Assembly (NCBI GenBank): GCA_008297865.1
Contig: VBQI01000008.1
Coordinates: 1 to 33,321, forward strand
Reading direction: 5' to 3'
From: Thermoplasmata archaeon
GTDB lineage: Archaea; Thermoplasmatota; E2; UBA202; JdFR-43
DNA: 33,321 nt
Of this stretch, positions 19,717 to 33,153 are shown one piece after another. The notes beneath the pieces were generated by a model. The model searched no databases and had not been told where the DNA came from. It saw nothing but the letters and a program-made list of their open reading frames with translations. Made by a program: the position numbers and the translations under genes. The first letter of the stretch is position 1; every line of letters starts with the position of its first letter.

Positions 19717-20004
19717 TTAACTATTTTTTACTGCTTTCATCACAACTGCAAGAAAATCATCTTTATTTACACCTATAACTTGAATCTTTTTAAAGAAACT
19801 TTTTAAAATATTCTGCAAATCATCAATTTTAACCCCTTTCAGTTTCTCTTCCAATTCTTCTATTTTTTCTTCGGGATGCATGAAAAAATCCCCACTAAAC
19901 TTAATTTTTTCTATAATTCCATCTTTAATTTTAACTTCGCATTTAATCAATTTTCCTCCTTTAACTTTCAATTCACCTTTTAAAATTCCATTCCTTACTT
20001 TCAT
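19717..20004 (-). CDS. lplB: Lipoate-protein ligase accessory subunit (LplB-like C-terminal domain)
   Basis: 95 aa 'GELKVKGGKLIKCEVKIKDGIIEKIKFSGDFFMHPEEKIEELEEKLKGVKIDD', resembling the LplA C-terminal domain; adjacent to lplA. Confidence 0.82.
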   Translation of the reverse strand: MKVRNGILKGELKVKGGKLIKCEVKIKDGIIEKIKFSGDFFMHPEEKIEELEEKLKGVKIDDLQNILKSFFKKIQVIGVNKDDFLAVVMKAVKNS

Positions 20005-20710
20005 ACTTCACCCTCAACTTCTCTGCCAGTTCCTTTTCCTTCTCATCCATTTTCCCTTCAAAAAATTTTATTTTCATTTTTTCTCTGAAACCCCTCATTA
20101 TCGCGTTAATAACTTCTTCCTTGCTAATTTCTCCAATTTCATTCTCTATGGACGTAACCCTCTCCTCAGCCCTTTTTATTTGTTTATCACTAATTTTTTC
20201 TTTGCTAACTTTAAGCAATGAAAACATTTTTTTCACATTTACTTTAAGCAATATAGTTCCATGTTGCAATACATTTCCATATCTCCTTGTCTGAGCACTT
20301 CCAGAAATTTTCTTGTCATTTACTATAATATCATTTATTCCTGCATGCTCTGCTTTTATTCCTACATACTTTAAACCATGAGCAATTGATGAGCATATAA
20401 TAGAGTAAGAGTCCATAATGTTTTGAGGCAACATATTTTGAGGGCATACTATGGAGTAAGTTATCTCTCCATTTTCATCATGGTAAACTGCTCCCCCACC
20501 AGTTATGCGACGCACAACGTCTACCCTTTGTCTCTTGCATTCTTCTAAATTTACTTCATCCTCAATGCATTGGAAATAGCCTATTGAAATAGCTGATGGC
20601 TTCCATGTATAAAAGCGCAAGGTTGGTATACCCTTTCTAAGCAATGCCTCATCAATTGCCATATTTGAAAAAGCATCGTTTGCTGGATGCAATATAAGGC
20701 GCCATTGCAT
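19973..20710 (-). CDS. lplA: Lipoate-protein ligase A (catalytic subunit)
   Basis: 'RRITGGGAVYHDENGEITYSIV', 'HAGINDIIVNDKKISGSAQTRRYGNVLQHGTILL'. Confidence 0.93.
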   Translation of the reverse strand: MQWRLILHPANDAFSNMAIDEALLRKGIPTLRFYTWKPSAISIGYFQCIEDEVNLEECKRQRVDVVRRITGGGAVYHDENGEITYSIVCPQNMLPQNIMDSYSIICSSIAHGLKYVGIKAEHAGINDIIVNDKKISGSAQTRRYGNVLQHGTILLKVNVKKMFSLLKVSKEKISDKQIKRAEERVTSIENEIGEISKEEVINAIMRGFREKMKIKFFEGKMDEKEKELAEKLRVKYESKEWNFKR

Positions 20711-22533: not shown

Positions 22534-24234
22534 TTAGCCATAGGTAACGAAGCATGCATCCAGCATGCTTTCTCTCTCCCAACTAACCCCTGCATCCCCT
22601 GAGTGATAAAAACTTCCGTAAGGATATGGGTTTTTAATACCTACAACCCATACTACGCCCCAATCTGCATTGTTGCTTCTGCACACAATATAGTATTCTT
22701 TCCTAGGAACAACTTTTATATCCGGAAAATCAAACATTATCCACTCTGTTTCCCATTCTTTGCTGACAGGTATTGTGAGAGAGAAGGTCATCAAATCACT
22801 TCCATTAAGACTTTCTCTGAGCGAAATGGTTACTTCAAAATTTTCTTTCCAAGCAATCAAGCCGAGTTCAATTTTAGATAAATTGCTAATGCTTGGAATA
22901 AATGATTGGGCAAGCCATCTTGTATTGTTTATGATATATGCATAATATCCATTTACCTGTCTTTGATCAACTATTTTTTCTGCCATGCTAACTGTGAAAC
23001 TTGCTGTATCACTTTCAGCCCCTTTTTCATCTTCTGCAATCACTTTTATTACATATGTGCCTTCTTTATTCCATGAGTGAGACACGCTAATAACTTCTCC
23101 AGATTCATATAGCTTGCTCCATTCTGTAGATCCATCTCCCCAATCAATGAAGTATCTTATTCTATCCTCCTCTGGATCTTCTGAATAAAGCTGGTATGTT
23201 TGCAAAACATTTATTTTTCCCGTTTCATTTCCCGAAATTGTTGGCTCTGAAGGAGGTAGTTCAACTTCCGTTAGATACAACTCGCCTGGGTAGTCATCAA
23301 ATATTTGGGGATACATTCCATAATACTTTTCTATAATTGGCTGGGCGTACCAAAAGGCCTCTTCTGCTGAACATATTCCATCTCCATTTTTATCTCCATA
23401 CCCCTTCAGGCCCTCTACTAAATAATGTGTAAAAAATGAACCGTAAGAAGTATCTTCTTCTCTCACTGAAGTCATTACCACTCTATTTTTCCCCCTCAAT
23501 TCTACACTCAATTCTTTTGCAAATTTCTTTGCATAACTCCAGTTATCATTGAATCCGCCACTATGACAGCTATCTACAATTAAGCATATTCCTTTCGATT
23601 CCAGCCTGTTTAAAAAATAGTTAATTTCATCATCTGTTAAAATTGCAAATGGATTTGCCAACGGCTCCCAGCTCCATGGATTTTCAAAAGGCAGAAAGCC
23701 ACGATAGGTAGCGAGAGCTTCATCCATTTCGTCTTTTTCATCAAAAGGGGGTAAATCAAAGATTATTGGAAAACCATGTGTTGTGAGATAAATAAGACAA
23801 ATATCATTTTCATCTTCCATCTTATCGAGCCATCTGAAACCCTTTATTATATTGAGTAAAGTTGCATTCTCAGCAGTAATAACTTTTATATGATTCTCAT
23901 CCCACCATTCGGAAACAAGCAATGTTTTGTATAAATTCTCCACTTCTTTAAGCATGGACGGGCGGTTCATCTCTGGAACATTTGCATACACGCCAACAGC
24001 AACAAGCAAAGCCCAGTATTCTGTATCTGCAGAACTTTCCTCAAAGGAAATAACTGGTAATCTCATCTGCTCCTTTTCCTGAAAAACAGGTGCATTTGAT
24101 TCTGTCAACATTGAACTCAACATTAAACAAATTATAAGGAAAGGACCAAGTTCCTTTATAACGAGGGACATGAAATTAAAATCAATTTCCATATAAAAGA
24201 GTTTGTTCTCCCAAAAATGATATTCAAAATCCAT
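22534..24234 (-). CDS. Exported metacaspase/caspase-like (C14-type) peptidase with EF-hand-like loop, PKD domain and C-terminal beta domain
   Basis: His motif 'CLIYLTTHGFP', Cys motif 'CLIVDSCHSGGF'; 'YGDKNGDGICSAEEAF' EF-hand-like loop; 'DPEEDRIRYFIDWGDGSTEW...HSWNKEGTYVIKVIAEDEKGAES' PKD. Probable true start at Met 24171 (MSLVIKELGPFLIICLMLSSM, signal-like). Confidence 0.8.
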   Translation of the reverse strand: MDFEYHFWENKLFYMEIDFNFMSLVIKELGPFLIICLMLSSMLTESNAPVFQEKEQMRLPVISFEESSADTEYWALLVAVGVYANVPEMNRPSMLKEVENLYKTLLVSEWWDENHIKVITAENATLLNIIKGFRWLDKMEDENDICLIYLTTHGFPIIFDLPPFDEKDEMDEALATYRGFLPFENPWSWEPLANPFAILTDDEINYFLNRLESKGICLIVDSCHSGGFNDNWSYAKKFAKELSVELRGKNRVVMTSVREEDTSYGSFFTHYLVEGLKGYGDKNGDGICSAEEAFWYAQPIIEKYYGMYPQIFDDYPGELYLTEVELPPSEPTISGNETGKINVLQTYQLYSEDPEEDRIRYFIDWGDGSTEWSKLYESGEVISVSHSWNKEGTYVIKVIAEDEKGAESDTASFTVSMAEKIVDQRQVNGYYAYIINNTRWLAQSFIPSISNLSKIELGLIAWKENFEVTISLRESLNGSDLMTFSLTIPVSKEWETEWIMFDFPDIKVVPRKEYYIVCRSNNADWGVVWVVGIKNPYPYGSFYHSGDAGVSWERESMLDACFVTYG

Positions 24235-24259
24235 TTATACATTCACTATTTTTTCCTCG

Positions 24260-26320
24260 ATGAAAAAGATAATAGTATTGTTGCTAACTCTACTCTTAAC
24301 CATTTCATTATCTCATGCAAAAATTGACTTGGCTATTGAATGGATTAAAGCAGAAAGAATTGTAGGAGAGGGGGAAATTGTAGAAATAAAAGCTAAGGTT
24401 TTGAATTTAGGGGAAAGCACTTCCTTCACTATATCCTTCTATTATGATTCTATCGATCCAGAGCATCTAATAGCAAGGAAACATTATGATTCAATTAACG
24501 TGTACAGAATCCCATCTGTAAAGTGGGATACAAAGGATTTGATAGGCGACCATACAATTATTGCATATGTTGAGGATGGATACAAAGAAAACAATTATGC
24601 CTTCTACAATATTTCTATTGTTGAGACAAAACCAGATGAAAATGAAAGGAAAATAATGATTTGTGAAGTATATTATTATGCTCGTCCCAACAGGAATAAT
24701 GAATATATTTGCATAGCTAATAGTGGAGAGAGAAAAGTAAATATGGAAGGATGGTATCTCACTACTGAGCCGTGGGAAAGAGCAGATGAGCAGAATAAGA
24801 TCATTCTCCCTGATGTAGAACTAAATTGTAGTGAAAAAATTTACATTACCCAAAATGGGAGTAGCTTTAAAATAGAAACTGGATTTGAAGCAGATTTTGA
24901 ATGGTACAACTGCTCTCATGTGCCAGATATAGAAAGGGAAGGAAGGTTTGTTTTGCCGAATCATGGAGGAATTGTATGCCTTAAAGATAAATACAATCAT
25001 TCAATTGATGTTGTAGTTTACGGAGATGTTTCGTATAGCGATGGATGGATTGGAGAAGCAGTAAAAAATGTTGATAAAGGAGTTGTGTTAAAAAGAAAGG
25101 ATTTTGTCGATACAAATACAAGCAAGGATTGGGAGCGGAGTATTATTGGACAATCCGAATTCCCTTCTTTTAGGGGAAAAGCCTATAGAGCTATTGCTTT
25201 TTGCTCTCCCGATTGCTCTTATGATGTTATTTCTAAAGAGTTAGTAAATATAAGCGAGATAAAGCTAAACCTGTATATGTTTACCGATCCTTTTCTTGCG
25301 GATTTGTTAAATAAAACAAATGCAGAAATGAAAATTCTTTTAGATGGAAATGTAATCGGTGGCTTACCCATGGAAGAAAGATATATTGCATGGATGCTTA
25401 GCAAAAAAGGAGAAGTGAGATATATGATGGCAAATGAGGAAGAGGGTGTATACAAGAGATATAAGTATAATCATGCAAAATATGCGATTATAGACGGCAA
25501 AAAGTGCATTATAGAATCTGCAAATTGGGTGAAAAACGGCGTGCCCATCGATAATTCGTATGGAAATAGAGAATGGGGGGTTTTAATTGAGAATGAAAGC
25601 TTGGCAGACTATCTCTCAACTGTTTTTCTTTACGACTGGAACCCTTCTTTTCAAGATAGCATACCTTTCGATGAAAAAAGCTTCACACATGGCAGGCCAC
25701 CCGAAGATTTCTCTATGAATTATTTTATTCCAAAAGGTGACTATGTAGCAAAATTTTCACCTTTGTATTTAAATTCCTCTTTCAATTTTACAGTTATAGT
25801 TGCCCCAGACAATGCCGAAGAAGAAATATTACATCTTCTTGATACAGCTGAAAAAGAAATATTGGTTGAGCAGGCATATATTGAGAAAGATTGGGAAGAT
25901 GGAATTAATCCTTTGCTTGAAAAACTAATCGAGAAAAATGAGAGTGGGGTAAGGGTCAAGATTATACTTAACTACAATCCTGCATATTATTCAACAAATA
26001 AAATGAATGAGGAAACTTGCGATTTTTTGAAAAATATTGATGTTAAACTCCAAAAGGAATTGAATATACACAATAAAGGTGTAATTGTAGATGGAGAGAA
26101 AGTACTTATATCTTCTATTAATTGGGGAGAAAATTCAATAAGGAGAAATAGAGAGGTGGGAATAATAATAGAAAGTGAAGAGATGGCAGAATATTTTGAA
26201 AAAATTTTTTGGTATGACTGGAACTATAAATTTGAAGAAAAGGCAGGATATGAAAAAATATTTGTTTTCGCTATCTTTATAATAACCTTTCTCTTAATCT
26301 ACCTACATTGGAGGAAATGA
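24260..26320 (+). CDS. Exported, membrane-anchored double phospholipase D-like protein with CARDB-like and lamin-tail-like N-terminal domains
   Basis: Signal peptide; 'LAIEWIKAERIVGEGEIVEIKAKVLNLGES' CARDB-like; 'ICEVYYYARPNRNNEYICIANSGERKVNMEGWYLTTE' LTD-like; PLD motifs 'HAKYAIIDGKKCIIESANW' and 'HNKGVIVDGEKVLISSINWGENSIRRNREVGI'; C-terminal TM 'IFVFAIFIITFLLIYLHWRK'. Confidence 0.85.
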   Translation: MKKIIVLLLTLLLTISLSHAKIDLAIEWIKAERIVGEGEIVEIKAKVLNLGESTSFTISFYYDSIDPEHLIARKHYDSINVYRIPSVKWDTKDLIGDHTIIAYVEDGYKENNYAFYNISIVETKPDENERKIMICEVYYYARPNRNNEYICIANSGERKVNMEGWYLTTEPWERADEQNKIILPDVELNCSEKIYITQNGSSFKIETGFEADFEWYNCSHVPDIEREGRFVLPNHGGIVCLKDKYNHSIDVVVYGDVSYSDGWIGEAVKNVDKGVVLKRKDFVDTNTSKDWERSIIGQSEFPSFRGKAYRAIAFCSPDCSYDVISKELVNISEIKLNLYMFTDPFLADLLNKTNAEMKILLDGNVIGGLPMEERYIAWMLSKKGEVRYMMANEEEGVYKRYKYNHAKYAIIDGKKCIIESANWVKNGVPIDNSYGNREWGVLIENESLADYLSTVFLYDWNPSFQDSIPFDEKSFTHGRPPEDFSMNYFIPKGDYVAKFSPLYLNSSFNFTVIVAPDNAEEEILHLLDTAEKEILVEQAYIEKDWEDGINPLLEKLIEKNESGVRVKIILNYNPAYYSTNKMNEETCDFLKNIDVKLQKELNIHNKGVIVDGEKVLISSINWGENSIRRNREVGIIIESEEMAEYFEKIFWYDWNYKFEEKAGYEKIFVFAIFIITFLLIYLHWRK

Positions 26321-26321
26321 A

Positions 26322-27185
26322 ATGCTTGCAAAAATAATTTCAATAGCTGTTCCTCTTGCCATCGTTCTTCCTATTGTATATGGATTTATCAGAAAAATTC
26401 CCTTATCGCTTATGCTAATCTTATCAAATTTTATCGTATTTTTTATAACATTTCCTTTTCTTAAGCTCGCAATAAATGAATTTGCATTCAATCCCTTATA
26501 TCTTAGCAGTTTAACTAAAATATATACTATTTTCACTTCAATGTTTTTGCATGGTGGTTTTGATCACATACTCTTCAATATGATTGGACTATTTTTTATT
26601 GGTTTACCATTTGAAAATGAAGTAGGGACAAAAAAATTCATCACCATATATTTCATTTCTGGAATTTCTGCTGCCTTGCTATTTTCCTTTTACAATTTTG
26701 GTGAAACTTATCTTATAGGGGCATCTGGAGCAATTTTTGGGATACTTGGCGCGTTTGCAGCATGTTGCCCATTTAAAAGAGTTTTTGTTCCTGTGCCAAT
26801 GTTCATAATGTTTTTTATGAGAATTCCCGTTATTGTTCTCGCCTTGCTATATGCTGGACTTGAAACATTCTATACATTGCTCGGTGCGCCTGATGGCGTT
26901 GCACATTCAGCTCATCTTGGGGGGTTCATAGCGGGCGTGTTTATGTATCCATTTATAAAAAGAAAGGTGGAAGCAAGGACTGACATCAACATTAATGATT
27001 TAGAGGAACTGATAGTTAACGATAAACAAAGAGAGATTTTTGATAAAGTGAAGCAGGCTGATGAAGCAGATGTAAGAGATGCATGGCTTTCCTATCTTTT
27101 AAAACATGTTAAATGTCCAAAATGTGGGGGAGAGATTTCTGTTAAAGAAGGAATAAAATGCAAAAAATGCGGTTATAAAAAATGA
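26322..27185 (+). CDS. Rhomboid-family intramembrane serine protease with C-terminal zinc ribbon
   Basis: 'TSMFLHGGFDHILFNMIGLFFIG', 'LIGASGAIFGILGAFA' (Ser), 'GVAHSAHLGGFIAGVFMYP' (His), C-terminal 'CPKCGGEISVKEGIKCKKCGYKK'. Confidence 0.92.
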   Translation: MLAKIISIAVPLAIVLPIVYGFIRKIPLSLMLILSNFIVFFITFPFLKLAINEFAFNPLYLSSLTKIYTIFTSMFLHGGFDHILFNMIGLFFIGLPFENEVGTKKFITIYFISGISAALLFSFYNFGETYLIGASGAIFGILGAFAACCPFKRVFVPVPMFIMFFMRIPVIVLALLYAGLETFYTLLGAPDGVAHSAHLGGFIAGVFMYPFIKRKVEARTDININDLEELIVNDKQREIFDKVKQADEADVRDAWLSYLLKHVKCPKCGGEISVKEGIKCKKCGYKK

Positions 27186-28288
27186 AGAATTACATATGCT
27201 ACAATCACTCCTCCATTTAAATATGGCAACCCTGGCTGTGGGCCTTTCGAAATAAGCGTCATGAGGAGAATATAGCCAATTAATGCTCCTAGTAATGTTA
27301 AAATAAAGCCCGTCAGTCCATATTCAAGATAGGATGCAGTAATCAGAATCCCTGGAATTACAACGTCTCCGAGCCCCATATAAACTGCATCCCTCTCATC
27401 TCGCCATTTATCCCTTAAATATGAATAAGAAGCTTTTTTTGGGAAAATCATGAGCAATGGAAGATGAGACGATACCGCTGTTTCTGCAAGTTTTACCATA
27501 TGTTTTGTTTTGTAAACAGAAACCGCATCATAAATTGCTAAAGCAATGAGAAATAGTAGTATTAGCTCAATTGAAAGTGATATGGCAAAAATGGCAGATA
27601 TACCTCCAGCAAGAAAAATTCCGAAAGTGTCAATAACATACCACTCTGGATATTTTACTAAAAGAAACAACATTACCACTGATATTATAAAAGCAGACAA
27701 AATGGCAAAAGTAGATTCATATGCAAATGAAACATCAGTTTCTATTGGCGGAACATTATTTCCTTTTCTCTCTCCCTTGATATAAATGACTTTACTTTCT
27801 CCCCCTCTAATTTCAGTAAGTGTCCATCTATTGTTGAATCCGGTATCATTTGCGGGCTGGGAAGAAATGAAAGTAAAATTTTCATGGTAAAGCGTAGATA
27901 CAACAACATTTTTTACAGGTTTATTTCCTGTATTGTTCACCCATATGGTATATATTAATTTGCCTCCTTGAAAATCCACTTTCTCCTCGATAGTTAAAGA
28001 AGGACTATCTACGGAATAGAAGAAAGCCTGAAAAATGGTGAATGCTGTAAGAAAGAAAAATAACAATATTATATATTTCACCAAATTTTTTCTATACTTT
28101 GCTATAAGCAAAATAATCAGGGTAAAAATGAGGATAATAAAAAAGATGTAAACAATGTTAAGTGGATCATTAGGATTTTCAAATGTTTCAAATCCCGCTT
28201 CTTTAAAAGATGGAGCAACAAAAATTGCTATAAGCTGGCTCACAACAAAAAGCACTGCCATGCCAGCAGGTGCACCAAATTTTTTCAT
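27173..28288 (-). CDS. Presenilin/SPP-like (PSH) GxGD intramembrane aspartyl protease with inserted extracytoplasmic domain
   Basis: 'LAIYDAVSVY' (YD), 'YMGLGDVVIPG' (GxGD), 'QPGLPYLNGG' (PAL-like); nine apparent TM segments; ~85 aa soluble insert 'SLTIEEKVDFQGGKLIYTIWVNNTGNKPVKNVVVSTLYHENFTF...' between TM3 and TM4. Confidence 0.85.
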   Translation of the reverse strand: MKKFGAPAGMAVLFVVSQLIAIFVAPSFKEAGFETFENPNDPLNIVYIFFIILIFTLIILLIAKYRKNLVKYIILLFFFLTAFTIFQAFFYSVDSPSLTIEEKVDFQGGKLIYTIWVNNTGNKPVKNVVVSTLYHENFTFISSQPANDTGFNNRWTLTEIRGGESKVIYIKGERKGNNVPPIETDVSFAYESTFAILSAFIISVVMLFLLVKYPEWYVIDTFGIFLAGGISAIFAISLSIELILLFLIALAIYDAVSVYKTKHMVKLAETAVSSHLPLLMIFPKKASYSYLRDKWRDERDAVYMGLGDVVIPGILITASYLEYGLTGFILTLLGALIGYILLMTLISKGPQPGLPYLNGGVIVAYVILHFL

Positions 28289-28320
28289 ACAAGTAAAAGA
28301 TTTAGGATAAATTAATTTTG

Positions 28321-28411
28321 GTTCATATCAATGTTTTTATCAGATGGACTATAAATGCTTCGTGAAAGTAAAAATATTCCTGCCTGAGTTCATATCAATG
28401 TTTTTATCAGA
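28321..28411. repeat. 24-bp exact direct repeat, period 67 bp
   Basis: GTTCATATCAATGTTTTTATCAGA at 28321-28344 and 28388-28411; the second copy encodes the C-terminal end of the 28390-28671 ORF. Confidence 0.9.
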
Positions 28412-28671
28412 CGTGCTACTGCCTCTGCTTCTTTCACAAAGAAAATGTATTCTTTTTCCGAAATAATTTTGATTTTTTTGGTTAGCCCTTTCATTACCTC
28501 GCTTTTTCTTATTTCTTTGAACCTTATAATGATTTCATTTTTTGTGAGCATAGGTTTAAAAACTATTTTTTTGTTAGTGACAAAAAGAGTGCCAGGTATT
28601 TTCACACTCTTTACTTTCATATTCGCTTTCTTTTTCCACAAAATTAGCTCATTTTTCTCTAAATTAATCAC
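28390..28671 (-). CDS. Small PH/GRAM-like domain protein (tentative)
   Basis: 93 aa 'ELILWKKKANMKVKSVKIPGTLFVTNKKIVFKPMLTKNEIIIRFKEIRKSEVMKGLTKKIKIISEKEYIFFVKEAEAVARLIKTLI'; 'GTLFVTNKKIVF' resembles GRAM/bPH strands. Confidence 0.6.
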   Translation of the reverse strand: MINLEKNELILWKKKANMKVKSVKIPGTLFVTNKKIVFKPMLTKNEIIIRFKEIRKSEVMKGLTKKIKIISEKEYIFFVKEAEAVARLIKTLI

Positions 28672-28703
28672 AGTAAAAAAGGCGGATGAAAATAAAAGTT
28701 TTG

Positions 28704-29150
28704 TTAATCAAAAACGATTCCTATTACAACGCCAGAAAATCCGGCAATAGCAAAAATTGCCGGAAGCATTACGTACATAGAGAAACCTACAAAAGGGATA
28801 AATATTGCTACATGAACAGCATGTGCCCAATGCCCCTGCAAACCTTGAGTATCGAGAAAGGTAATAGGAAAGGCAATAAGTGCTGGAGTCAATGGAATGA
28901 ATGGAGGAAATATTATTCCACCTCCTATTCCAACTACTTTGCACATAGTATTAACATATATGCTATCCTCTCCGAATTTTTCCTGCAAAATTTCAATAAA
29001 AACTTCTATTTCTTCTTCAGTAAATCCTCCTTCCCGTATGCTTTTAAGTTCATCTATCACAAAATCAATTTCGTTTTTTTCTTTTTTATTCGGGCTTACA
29101 CACGGTAAGCAAATTGAGAAAATTATAAGGAAAGCAATAAATTTTCTCAT
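28704..29150 (-). CDS. Hypothetical exported/membrane protein
   Basis: 148 aa with signal peptide-like N-terminus (MRKFIAFLIIFSICLPCVSP) and hydrophobic C-terminal half. Confidence 0.6.
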   Translation of the reverse strand: MRKFIAFLIIFSICLPCVSPNKKEKNEIDFVIDELKSIREGGFTEEEIEVFIEILQEKFGEDSIYVNTMCKVVGIGGGIIFPPFIPLTPALIAFPITFLDTQGLQGHWAHAVHVAIFIPFVGFSMYVMLPAIFAIAGFSGVVIGIVFD

Positions 29151-29229
29151 TGTAATAATTTCTCTACCCCTATATATAGTTCACCTTTTGATTAACAATT
29201 TCGCAAGCATCTTATTTACTTTCTGTTTT

Positions 29230-29670
29230 ATGAATATGAAAGGTATACTACTTGGGATAGTGATAATCGGAATAATTGCATCTGCATATTTTATGATGGC
29301 AAATGGAGATTATGCCATTGTGGTGAAAACAGATAAGCATACCTATTCTCTAAATGAAGAAATACATATCTGGATCGAAATTAAAGATTATGACAGTAAG
29401 AATATAAAATTTCCTTCATCAAAAATTGCTGACTTCTGCATTTATAAAGGAGAAGAAAAATTGTATCAGTGGTCGGAAAATAGAAGTTTTTTACAGGTTA
29501 TTACCTCGATAAATCTCTCGAAAGGAATGATATTATTAGAAACAACTATTCCTGCAAATATGTTGGGCATCGGAACTTTTGAAATAAGAGCGTGGATGGA
29601 AAAATTTTATGAAAATGGAGAAATCCATCCTGAAGTATATGCAAAGTCAATTAGCTTTTCTATATCATGA
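29230..29670 (+). CDS. Membrane-anchored BsuPI-like (intracellular proteinase inhibitor-type) domain protein
   Basis: Start set at Met 29230 (MNMKGILLGIVIIGIIASAYFMM, TM). 'DKHTYSLNEEIHIWIEIKDYDSKNIKFPSSKIADFCIYKGEEKLYQWSENRSFLQVITSINLSKGMILLETTIP' fits the BsuPI pattern (yrWS...F.q.l..i.L..G). Confidence 0.55.
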   Translation: MNMKGILLGIVIIGIIASAYFMMANGDYAIVVKTDKHTYSLNEEIHIWIEIKDYDSKNIKFPSSKIADFCIYKGEEKLYQWSENRSFLQVITSINLSKGMILLETTIPANMLGIGTFEIRAWMEKFYENGEIHPEVYAKSISFSIS

Positions 29671-30041: not shown

Positions 30042-30197
30042 ATGAGTAAAGGTACGCCATCAAAAGAAGGAGGAGGAAAAACCCACATTGTTTGCAGAAG
30101 ATGCGGGAAGCATGCATATAATGCGAGAAAGAAATATTGTGCCTCCTGCGGCTTTGGAAGGTCCAGGAGGAGAAGAAAATTCAGCTGGAAAAAATGA
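30042..30197 (+). CDS. rpl37e: 50S ribosomal protein L37e
   Basis: Translation: [51 protein letters not shown]. Below the ORF track length cutoff; zinc-finger CxxC/CxxC. Confidence 0.96.
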
Positions 30198-31582
30198 AAG
30201 AAAGTTGTGGAGTAGTTGCCATTGCTTCTCGCAATAATGTAGCAGAAAGCCTATACATTTCTCTAATGGCGTTGCAACATCGTGGGCAGGAGGCGGCGGG
30301 CATAGCCTTGTATAATGGAAAAATAGAGACATATAAGGGACTTGGGCTTGTGGAAGAGGCATTTCGCAAATTTGATTTGAAAGAACTTAAAGGTAATGTT
30401 GGCATTGGTCATACTTATTATTCAGTAAAAATTTCTTCTCCTGAAAATGCTCAGCCTACTTTACTTCACACATCTGCAGGAGATATTGCAATTGCCCATA
30501 ATGGTATAATAGTAAATTCTTCAGAGCTTAAAGAAGAGCTTATGAAAAGCGGACATAGTTTCATGTACGGAAGTGAGGAAGAGGCAATTGTCTATCTTCT
30601 TGCAGACTATTTGAAAGAGAAAAGCATACAAAAGGCAACAAAACTGCTTATGAAGAAAATAAATGGCTCATATTCATTTACATTTATGCTAAATGAAAGA
30701 ACATTTGGACTCAGAGATGCGCATGGAATAAAGCCTTTATGTATTGGAAAAATAGATAATGGCTACATTATCACCTCTGAATCCGTAGCAATAGATGCGC
30801 TTGGAGGGGAATTTATAAGAGATGTTGAGCCTGGCGAGCTTATTGAAATTACAGCAGATGGCTATAAATCATATAAGCTTATAAATGAGAGATATAAGGC
30901 GCATTGCTTCTTTGAATATGTATACTTTGCAAGAGCAGATTCATTTATAGATGGAATAGAAGTGTACAAAGTTAGGGAGAAGCTTGGAGAAATTCTTGCA
31001 AGAGAACATCCTGTAGATGCAGATTATGTTATTCCCATTCCCGATTCAGGAAGAGCTCATGCTTATGGCTATTCAAAAGCATCTGGAATCCCTCTGGCAG
31101 AGGGATTAATGAAAAATCGCTATATTGCAAGAACCTTTATTCTACCAACTCAAAAAATAAGAGAGAAACTCGTACAATTAAAGCTTAATCCGGTTAAAAG
31201 CATTGTAAATGGGAAGAGGATAGTTATTGTAGATGATTCCATAGTAAGAGGGACAACAATGAGGAAAATAGTTAGCTTACTCCGCCGTTATGGGGCGAAG
31301 CAAGTGCATGTTCGTATTGCCTCACCGCCAATTATAGCTCCATGCTATTTTGGAATTGATATGACAACGAGGGAGCAACTTATTGCTTCGGGGAGAAGTA
31401 TAGAAGAAATAAGGGAAGAAATTGGAGCAGATTCCCTCGGATACATTTCTATAGATGGGCTTGTGGAAGCAATGGGGATTGAAAAAGATAATCTCTGTCT
31501 TGGATGCGTAACAGCAGAATATCCTGTTCCCGTAAAAGGAGAGAAGCTTCGATTCCAAAAAGAGTTGGAAAAATGGGAATGA
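30194..31582 (+). CDS. purF: Amidophosphoribosyltransferase
   Basis: '[42 protein letters not shown]', '[20 protein letters not shown]', '[22 protein letters not shown]', '[38 protein letters not shown]'. Start at ATGA overlap with L37e. Confidence 0.95.
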
Positions 31583-33153
31583 AATACTATGCAATAATAA
31601 TTGCTACTATAGCAATCCTTTCCTTTATATTTGTATACAGTTTTAAGAAGGAAAACGAGCAGGAGACAATAATCATTTCAATCTATCCAGAAAATTTTTC
31701 CATTGAAGAAGGAAAAAGCATGGAAATCATTCTCTCTGTAAGTAAAAATGGAGAGCCATATGAAACAAATGTAAGCTGGAGTGTTAAGGCAAGTGGAGAT
31801 ACGGGAAGGGTGGAAAATGGCTCATTTACTGATATATATGGAAAGGCAAAAGCAAGATATGTTGCGCCAAAAGATGTGGATGAAATGGAGCATGGGGTAG
31901 AGATAATTGCTTCTGTAAAAATTGATGGAAAGGAGTGGAAGGCTTATGCAAATGCAACAGTTTATCCAAGGTTATATGAAACAGAATTATATTTAGAAAG
32001 CAATAGAAGAGAAATGATTGCGGGAGAAACCTGCATTTTTAAAGCTTATTTAGTTGCAAAAGAACAACAATGGCATCCATTAGAAAATGCAACAATAATA
32101 TGGAAATTTTATGCAAATGGAATATTGTTCATGGAGAAAAAGAGCGAAACAGATGAAAATGGAATCACAGAGATGCCTTTATTCTATTCTAATGCAATAG
32201 AAAATACGAGCATAGTGGCGATGGCGAAATTTGAGAGAAATTTATCAGGAGAAAAAGATTATGAGGGAAGTGCTGCAGATAAAAGCATTTCCGTTATTCC
32301 AGAGAGGCCCGGCGACTTTCCTATTGTTTTGATTCATGGATGGTCTGGAAGTATATCTAATGCATTAATAAACTATACATGGTGGAATTTAACAAAGAAG
32401 CTGGAGGCAAGAGGTTTTAAAGTTCTTGATTTTGATGTTACCAAACCCGGCATACAATGGCTAACTTATGAGCCAGACTGGTTTGAAGAACATCATATTC
32501 CATGGGTTGCAGCAAGAGTATGTGAAAAAATAAGAGATGCACTGGTATTAAATGGCTATTCTCCAAATCAGACGATAGATATTGTTACTCATAGTATGGG
32601 TGGACTTGTAGCCCGATTCATGGCTGAGCATTATATGGCAGATGTTGACTACTGGAATAAAAGCTGGAATGGCAAAGGATATCCTTGGTATGGTGATGGG
32701 TATCCAGATATAACTATTGGACCATTCCAAATTGATGATTTAATAGTTGTTGGCACCCCCTGCCATGGTGTGCCTCCTAACATAAATGTAAGTTTGCTTA
32801 GAGAAATAATAAAACGTGCATATCTTCCATGGTGGATGGGGCCTGTGCCAGATATGATTTACAACTCACCTTTTTTACAGGCTATGGGGTATGAAGGAAC
32901 TGATTTAGTTGACTATTATGCTGTGGGAGGAGATATTGGATTTATTATTGGTGATTATCCGAGAGATTTTGATGGAGATGGCATACCACATACTTCAGAT
33001 GGTCTCTGTCCAACAGAAAGTCCTTACTTAGAGGGTAAACCACTTTACATTTTAGAAGGCTCAGCTTGGCCTCTTGGAAAAGAAGACCATATTTCTTTGA
33101 TTGCCATTAACGAGAAAGTGCATGAATATATTATACAGCATTTAATTAATTAA
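31579..33153 (+). CDS. Exported alpha/beta hydrolase (lipase/PGAP1-like) with N-terminal Ig-like beta domains
   Basis: N-terminal TM ([22 protein letters not shown]); 'IYPENFSIEEGKSMEIILSVSKNGEPYETNVSWSV' Ig-like; 'FPIVLIHGWSGS', 'IDIVTHSMGGLVARFMAEHY', terminal 'EDHISLIAINEKVHEYI'. Start overlaps purF stop (ATGA). Confidence 0.82.
   Translation: MKYYAIIIATIAILSFIFVYSFKKENEQETIIISIYPENFSIEEGKSMEIILSVSKNGEPYETNVSWSVKASGDTGRVENGSFTDIYGKAKARYVAPKDVDEMEHGVEIIASVKIDGKEWKAYANATVYPRLYETELYLESNRREMIAGETCIFKAYLVAKEQQWHPLENATIIWKFYANGILFMEKKSETDENGITEMPLFYSNAIENTSIVAMAKFERNLSGEKDYEGSAADKSISVIPERPGDFPIVLIHGWSGSISNALINYTWWNLTKKLEARGFKVLDFDVTKPGIQWLTYEPDWFEEHHIPWVAARVCEKIRDALVLNGYSPNQTIDIVTHSMGGLVARFMAEHYMADVDYWNKSWNGKGYPWYGDGYPDITIGPFQIDDLIVVGTPCHGVPPNINVSLLREIIKRAYLPWWMGPVPDMIYNSPFLQAMGYEGTDLVDYYAVGGDIGFIIGDYPRDFDGDGIPHTSDGLCPTESPYLEGKPLYILEGSAWPLGKEDHISLIAINEKVHEYIIQHLIN

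Follow-up and report, generated by a model that had tools for sequence, protein, structure and literature searches.

Why does an archaeon keep the genes of two intramembrane proteases, a rhomboid (RHO) and a homolog (PSH) of presenilin, the protease linked to Alzheimer's disease, side by side with the gene of a putative surface hydrolase of the PLD superfamily (PLD)? The question is raised by a stretch of 33,321 nucleotides, here called the window, from a Thermoplasmata archaeon (contig VBQI01000008.1, positions 1 to 33,321 of the forward strand; GenBank assembly GCA_008297865.1, 1.17 Mb, 81% complete). A first-pass annotation of the window had combined the three genes with those of a caspase-like C14 protein and a BsuPI-like protein into one possible surface proteolysis module. 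All five proteins were found where it had located them, and the two junctions it described, between PLD and RHO and between RHO and PSH, were as it had said. The features of main interest are:

24260..26320, + strand: PLD, with a signal peptide, N-terminal LTD-like beta domains, two HKD PLD-superfamily domains, a C-terminal transmembrane (TM) segment (residues 666–684), and a short basic tail (HWRK)
26322..27185, + strand: RHO, a rhomboid intramembrane serine protease (S135/H198) with a C-terminal Cys ribbon; it begins 1 nt after the end of PLD
27173..28288, − strand: PSH, a presenilin/SPP-type GxGD aspartyl protease (9 TM, D254/D308); its 3′ end overlaps the 3′ end of RHO by 13 bp
27713..28012, − strand: DUF11 insertion in the TM3–TM4 loop of PSH (residues ~93–192), predicted to be extracellular

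A Conserved Locus of Three Genes

PLD, RHO, and PSH, without C14 and BsuPI, form a conserved locus. The comparison comprised 57 PSH loci, that of the window and those of 56 relatives of the same class; open reading frames (ORFs) were called on the DNA, the neighborhood extended up to seven genes from PSH, and 328 gene clusters were compared between families. RHO lies next to PSH in 47 of the 57 loci, always convergently when adjacent, and PLD is found directly 5′ of RHO on the same strand in 42/57, a count that includes a few partial copies at contig ends and one 64-amino acid (aa) relic. The adjacency of RHO and PSH holds in 16 of 17 loci of family f1 (the one miss being a contig end), 3 of 3 of f2, 25 of 27 of f4, and 3 of 3 of f10. 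Only the PLD, RHO, and PSH clusters are consistently common to the families, all others being sporadic. Co-occurrence in related genomes, with order and orientation conserved in four families, is therefore a property of these three genes and not of C14 and BsuPI, and to this extent only does the grouping of the first-pass annotation stand.

The gap between PLD and RHO ranges from −55 to +6 bp and that between the 3′ ends of RHO and PSH from −35 to +55 bp, the 3′ ends overlapping in 32 of the 47 loci. PLD and RHO are still paired, with PSH located elsewhere, in genomes G023, G024, G025, G027, G031, and G040. In the PSH loci of methanogens and other sampled lineages neither PLD nor RHO was within reach.

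In families f4 and f10 a tRNA-Cys gene is present upstream of PLD, mostly directly (L131, L137, L139, L141–L143, L146, L147, L151, L160, L166), or upstream of RHO where PLD is decayed or missing (L135, L148, L150, L153, L154, L161). In L127 (f2) a tRNA-Arg gene takes this place.

The PLD Protein

The best reading of PLD, from its domains and predicted topology, is a nuclease-like hydrolase of the cell surface, type I in orientation and with the catalytic part facing outward. PLDc_2 matches the window protein twice (E = 4.5e-33), with HKD motifs at residues 405 and 604. Its membership in the PLD superfamily is borne out by the two HxKx4D motifs, the strict pattern being found twice in 31 of 35 full-length homologs. 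The LTD match of the window protein is under its cut-off (29.6 vs. 34.3 bits); LTD domains are common to the homologs, and CARDB is often present too. Across homologs the C-terminus has a variable linker; conservation is moderate in the TM that comes next and higher in the basic tail, which frequently reads [DHY]W[RK][KR]. It should be noted that the tail is under an added constraint at the DNA level, because the last PLD codons overlap RHO in many genomes.

The top match of PLD in Foldseek is human PLD3; phospholipases matched as well. Among NCBIfam and PADLOC profiles the best matches are DrmC and NucT. PLD resembles the double-HKD nucleases Nuc, NucT, and DrmC and the exonucleases PLD3 and PLD4 in having two HKD motifs followed by SANW/SINW, but differs in scoring under the NCBIfam cut-offs, and its fold fits phospholipases equally. 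We infer that PLD may act on nucleic acid; lipid remodeling looks less likely than a nuclease-like role. A function in DISARM or another defense system was considered and rejected, since the matches to DrmC are weak (67 bits, cut-off 133); no other DISARM component was matched among eight nearby proteins scanned.

The Rhomboid

RHO matches the Rhomboid profile with 109.7 bits (cut-off 22.6; E = 1.8e-31), and the GxSG motif and the catalytic His are both kept in 47/47. The protein ends in a zinc-ribbon-like pair of CxxC motifs, predicted to be cytosolic. The closest working analogy for the PLD–RHO pair is the rhombosortase/GlyGly-CTERM system (PMC3237569, PMC6085458), in which a rhomboid gene lies beside that of an exported protein with a signal peptide and a C-terminal TM plus basic end, as PLD has them. 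For example, the bacterial ExeM is an LTD nuclease, and PLD is LTD-like. The two systems differ, however, in that RHO bears its C-terminal Cys ribbon, and in that PLD has a variable linker and no Gly/Ser-rich motif (GG/SGGS) ahead of the TM.

The Presenilin Homolog and Its Insertion

Intramembrane proteolytic activity of PSH is predicted from its family membership (SPP, E = 1.4e-57; NCBIfam PSH, NF041679, 231 bits vs. a cut-off of 125) and from the motifs YD254, GLGD308, and QPGLPYL (PAL-type); GxGD is kept in all 57 class PSHs. An AlphaFold2 (AF2) model of the window protein has nine TM helices, with a pLDDT of 82 and an insertion of low confidence, and superimposes on PSH crystal chains with TM-scores of 0.76–0.81 (by target length). 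The top Foldseek matches are archaeal PSH. Window residues 193–367 align with residues 101–288 of the PSH MCMJR1 (PDB 4HYC; whole-chain E = 8e-39), and both catalytic Asp and, in the model, the nine TM are shared. The two proteins differ in the TM3–TM4 loop, which is short in 4HYC and comprises ~100 residues with DUF11 in the window.

The first-pass annotation had the identity and position of PSH right, but overlooked this domain. DUF11 (PF01345) matches at residues 105–173 (E = 3e-7; 31.1–35.1 bits vs. a gathering threshold of 24.6), and in the alignment the insertion falls at 4HYC residues 92–101, between TM3 and TM4. Whereas the loop of the window PSH has ~95 aa with DUF11, it is short in the class relatives, and DUF11 is absent from them. 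The loop charges agree with an N-in topology and an external TM3–TM4 loop, which is thus probably extracellular. N-glycosylation sequons in the window insertion alone are not significantly enriched (3 vs. 1.6, P = 0.20). Because the window PSH is placed in the tree nearest to members of the same family without insertion, the phylogeny points to a recent gain of DUF11. A search for a donor in the same genome yielded one weak match (E = 0.4). A chimera of the assembly, also considered as source, looks less likely on the evidence of this one genome of the genus, in which the insertion is in frame and its GC and third-position GC (GC3) resemble those of the rest of the gene.

SPPL2a and presenilin-1 are among the Foldseek matches of PSH, and SPPL2a and gamma-secretase resemble the window protein in being GxGD proteases with an associated domain on the extracellular or lumenal side. 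The positions differ, however: in SPPL2 a PA domain is at the N-terminus and nicastrin is a separate subunit of gamma-secretase, whereas the domain of the window PSH sits within the TM3–TM4 loop. SPPL2 proteins and nicastrin may therefore serve as precedents for an outside domain, at a different position.

Larger Insertions at the Same Site

A scan of the phylum (145 genomes, PSH in 125) revealed PSH frames of 530–900 aa in several Thermoplasmatota families (e.g., ~530–880 aa in L169–L180, L184, and L185). In the 14 long PSHs examined, ~227–404 aa are inserted at the same TM3–TM4 point as DUF11 in the window. These insertions are acidic and contain 84 N-glycosylation sequons vs. 40 in shuffles, or 1.7 per 100 residues vs. 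0.18 in the PSH core, a richness which fits the expected outside location. Similarity to propeller or FG-GAP domains was seen in one insertion only (L170), weakly and under curated cut-offs, so that a beta-propeller identity, although a possibility, was not adopted for the large insertions in general. Since the long forms occupy at least two separate places in the tree and DUF11 had no match in ten of them scanned, insertions were apparently acquired at the TM3–TM4 site on more than one occasion.

Two Proteases and One Candidate Substrate

What, then, could the three proteins do together? Starting from gene order, conservation, catalytic motifs, and the insertion, we propose, tentatively and with somewhat less than an even chance of being right, that PLD–RHO–PSH is a conserved functional neighborhood for cell-surface intramembrane proteolysis. 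After export PLD would take up a type I orientation, its catalytic part facing outward and its single C-terminal TM followed by a basic tail in the cytosol. RHO, whose translation follows immediately, would cut this anchor within the TM or in the juxtamembrane region, whereby the ectodomain would be released or sorted. PSH, with its predicted presenilin-like topology, would then degrade the leftover TM stubs of PLD and of other surface proteins, and in the window the extra DUF11 domain, if extracellular over the TM bundle, may select or gate substrates. That PLD is a substrate of RHO is plausible because of its predicted type I topology, its conserved TM and basic tail, and the tight gene pair with RHO. 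In favor of this proposal we also count that in family f12 the place of PLD ahead of the same rhomboid is taken by a different surface protein, large and with a cupredoxin domain, that has a TM at its C-terminus and an RR tail (L201:5024–9001, L205:1–3519).

Several observations weigh against it. With 45.4 bits vs. a cut-off of 84 for TIGR03902, RHO is by this score not a true rhombosortase, and in Shewanella the loss of rhombosortase had only a small effect on ExeM (PMC6085458). RHO and PSH are convergent and thus do not belong to one operon. In f3 and f5–f9 the two are adjacent in 0/7 loci, PSH being located elsewhere. Finally, G026, G039, G041, G044, G045, and G053 yielded no intact PLD and yet have RHO and PSH still adjacent, which indicates that PLD is not the sole substrate or the sole reason for the arrangement, and that there are other clients or another reason for the adjacency.

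In five of these six genomes relics of PLD retain the TM tail (none was found in G053): at L135, L148, L150, L153, and L154 the TM plus basic-tail segment of the decayed gene is still in frame just 5′ of RHO, possibly owing to its overlap with the RHO start or promoter. That the stub is a small membrane protein in its own right was also considered, but we favor the remnant of a pseudogene, because the copy in G044 is without a normal start codon and because part of the stub lies over RHO or may contain the RHO promoter.

The rival that survives best, although we consider it unlikely, is that PLD and RHO are a dedicated rhombosortase-like pair and PSH a housekeeping remover of stubs or signal peptides, neighboring them only via synteny and overlapping 3′ ends. 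Indeed, PLD–RHO is found without PSH in f5–f9, f16, f20, and f27, the overlap of the RHO and PSH 3′ ends is frequent, and the upstream tRNA-Cys is often kept too in f4 and f10, as if the locus were generally stable. However, RHO and PSH stay adjacent after the loss of PLD, in the 15 loci without overlap, and across families in which the other flanking genes have turned over, and they are convergent also in G065 of the separate family f17.

Less probable still, with perhaps one chance in five, is general quality control, in which RHO and PSH would break down TM proteins that are damaged or orphaned, and PLD, a surface nuclease or phospholipase unrelated to this task, would share only the promoter. 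The persistence of RHO–PSH in genomes that have lost PLD and the relaxed sequence specificity of the PSH from Methanoculleus (PMC2947513) would agree with this; the near-constant pairing of PLD and RHO at gaps or overlaps of a few bp and the preserved TM tail of PLD are left unexplained by it. A single module for surface proteolysis made up of all five genes, with the caspase-like protein and a BsuPI inhibitor among its members, is very improbable, since, despite their location inside 7 kb and most of the products being exported or membrane proteins, it is contradicted by the neighborhood comparison, unless the module is genus-specific.

Our proposal of a PLD–RHO–PSH neighborhood can be extended to the phylum, albeit as a speculation that we believe to be improbable: Thermoplasmatota presenilins would have repeatedly gained ectodomains at TM3–TM4, DUF11 in the window and larger, possibly propeller-like ones in other genomes. 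Built into the protease chain, these domains would receive or gate substrates, as an equivalent of nicastrin within one chain, and the PSH of this class and its partner RHO would act in a two-step proteolysis of a surface PLD nuclease.

Neighboring Genes Outside the Locus

The other genes around the locus are:

22534..24234, − strand: C14 caspase-like protein with Peptidase_C14 and PKD domains and an N-terminal TM; divergent neighbor of PLD
28390..28671, − strand: GRAM/bPH-domain protein, 5′ of PSH; near the locus in 2/56 relatives (3/57 loci)
29230..29670, + strand: BsuPI-like TM-anchored protein (PF12690, 41.6 bits vs. a gathering threshold of 22.9); not in the conserved locus

C14 matches Pfam Peptidase_C14 (E = 3e-7; 30.8 vs. 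21.4 bits) and has the His-Cys dyad H153 (TTHG) and C223 (DSCHSGG). As a conserved neighbor it was rejected: its whole-protein profile matched nine loci, but with the caspase domain by itself just the window and a single further locus were left, the remaining matches presumably stemming from PKD and other extracellular domains. The BsuPI gene likely starts with ATG 29230 rather than with the long-ORF start 28897. No BsuPI protein is encoded near PSH in the other class loci, and the idea of the first-pass annotation that it is an inhibitor or a substrate within the system finds no support.

Three further genes of the window should be mentioned. The 148-aa exported or membrane protein encoded at 28704–29150 (− strand) has no NCBIfam match, a sub-threshold Pfam match, and no relative in the class loci. 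Directly after purF (30194–31582) follows, at 31579–33153 (+ strand), a TM-anchored alpha/beta hydrolase, whose weak Pfam matches are lipase-like and whose N-terminal region is possibly Ig-like. The gene at 19717–20710 (− strand), lipoate-protein ligase-like by eye, is split into two overlapping ORFs of 245 and 95 aa, which we take to resemble the known two-part archaeal LplA.

Meaning of the Locus

Every protein of the locus belongs to a known family. Neither the PLD–RHO–PSH locus nor TM3–TM4 insertions in presenilins are described in the open-access papers searched (subscription papers and preprints being outside the search). In the literature, archaeal presenilin-type proteases are still described as lacking known natural substrates, and prokaryotic rhomboids as largely lacking them (PMC2947513, PMC9263693, PMC12067869). 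The conserved locus brings the two proteases together with a single candidate substrate of type I topology and therefore provides a concrete pair that can be tested. And if the TM3–TM4 insertions gate substrates, presenilins can bear an ectodomain of their own, and these proteins would be small single-chain models for the control of access by nicastrin-like domains.

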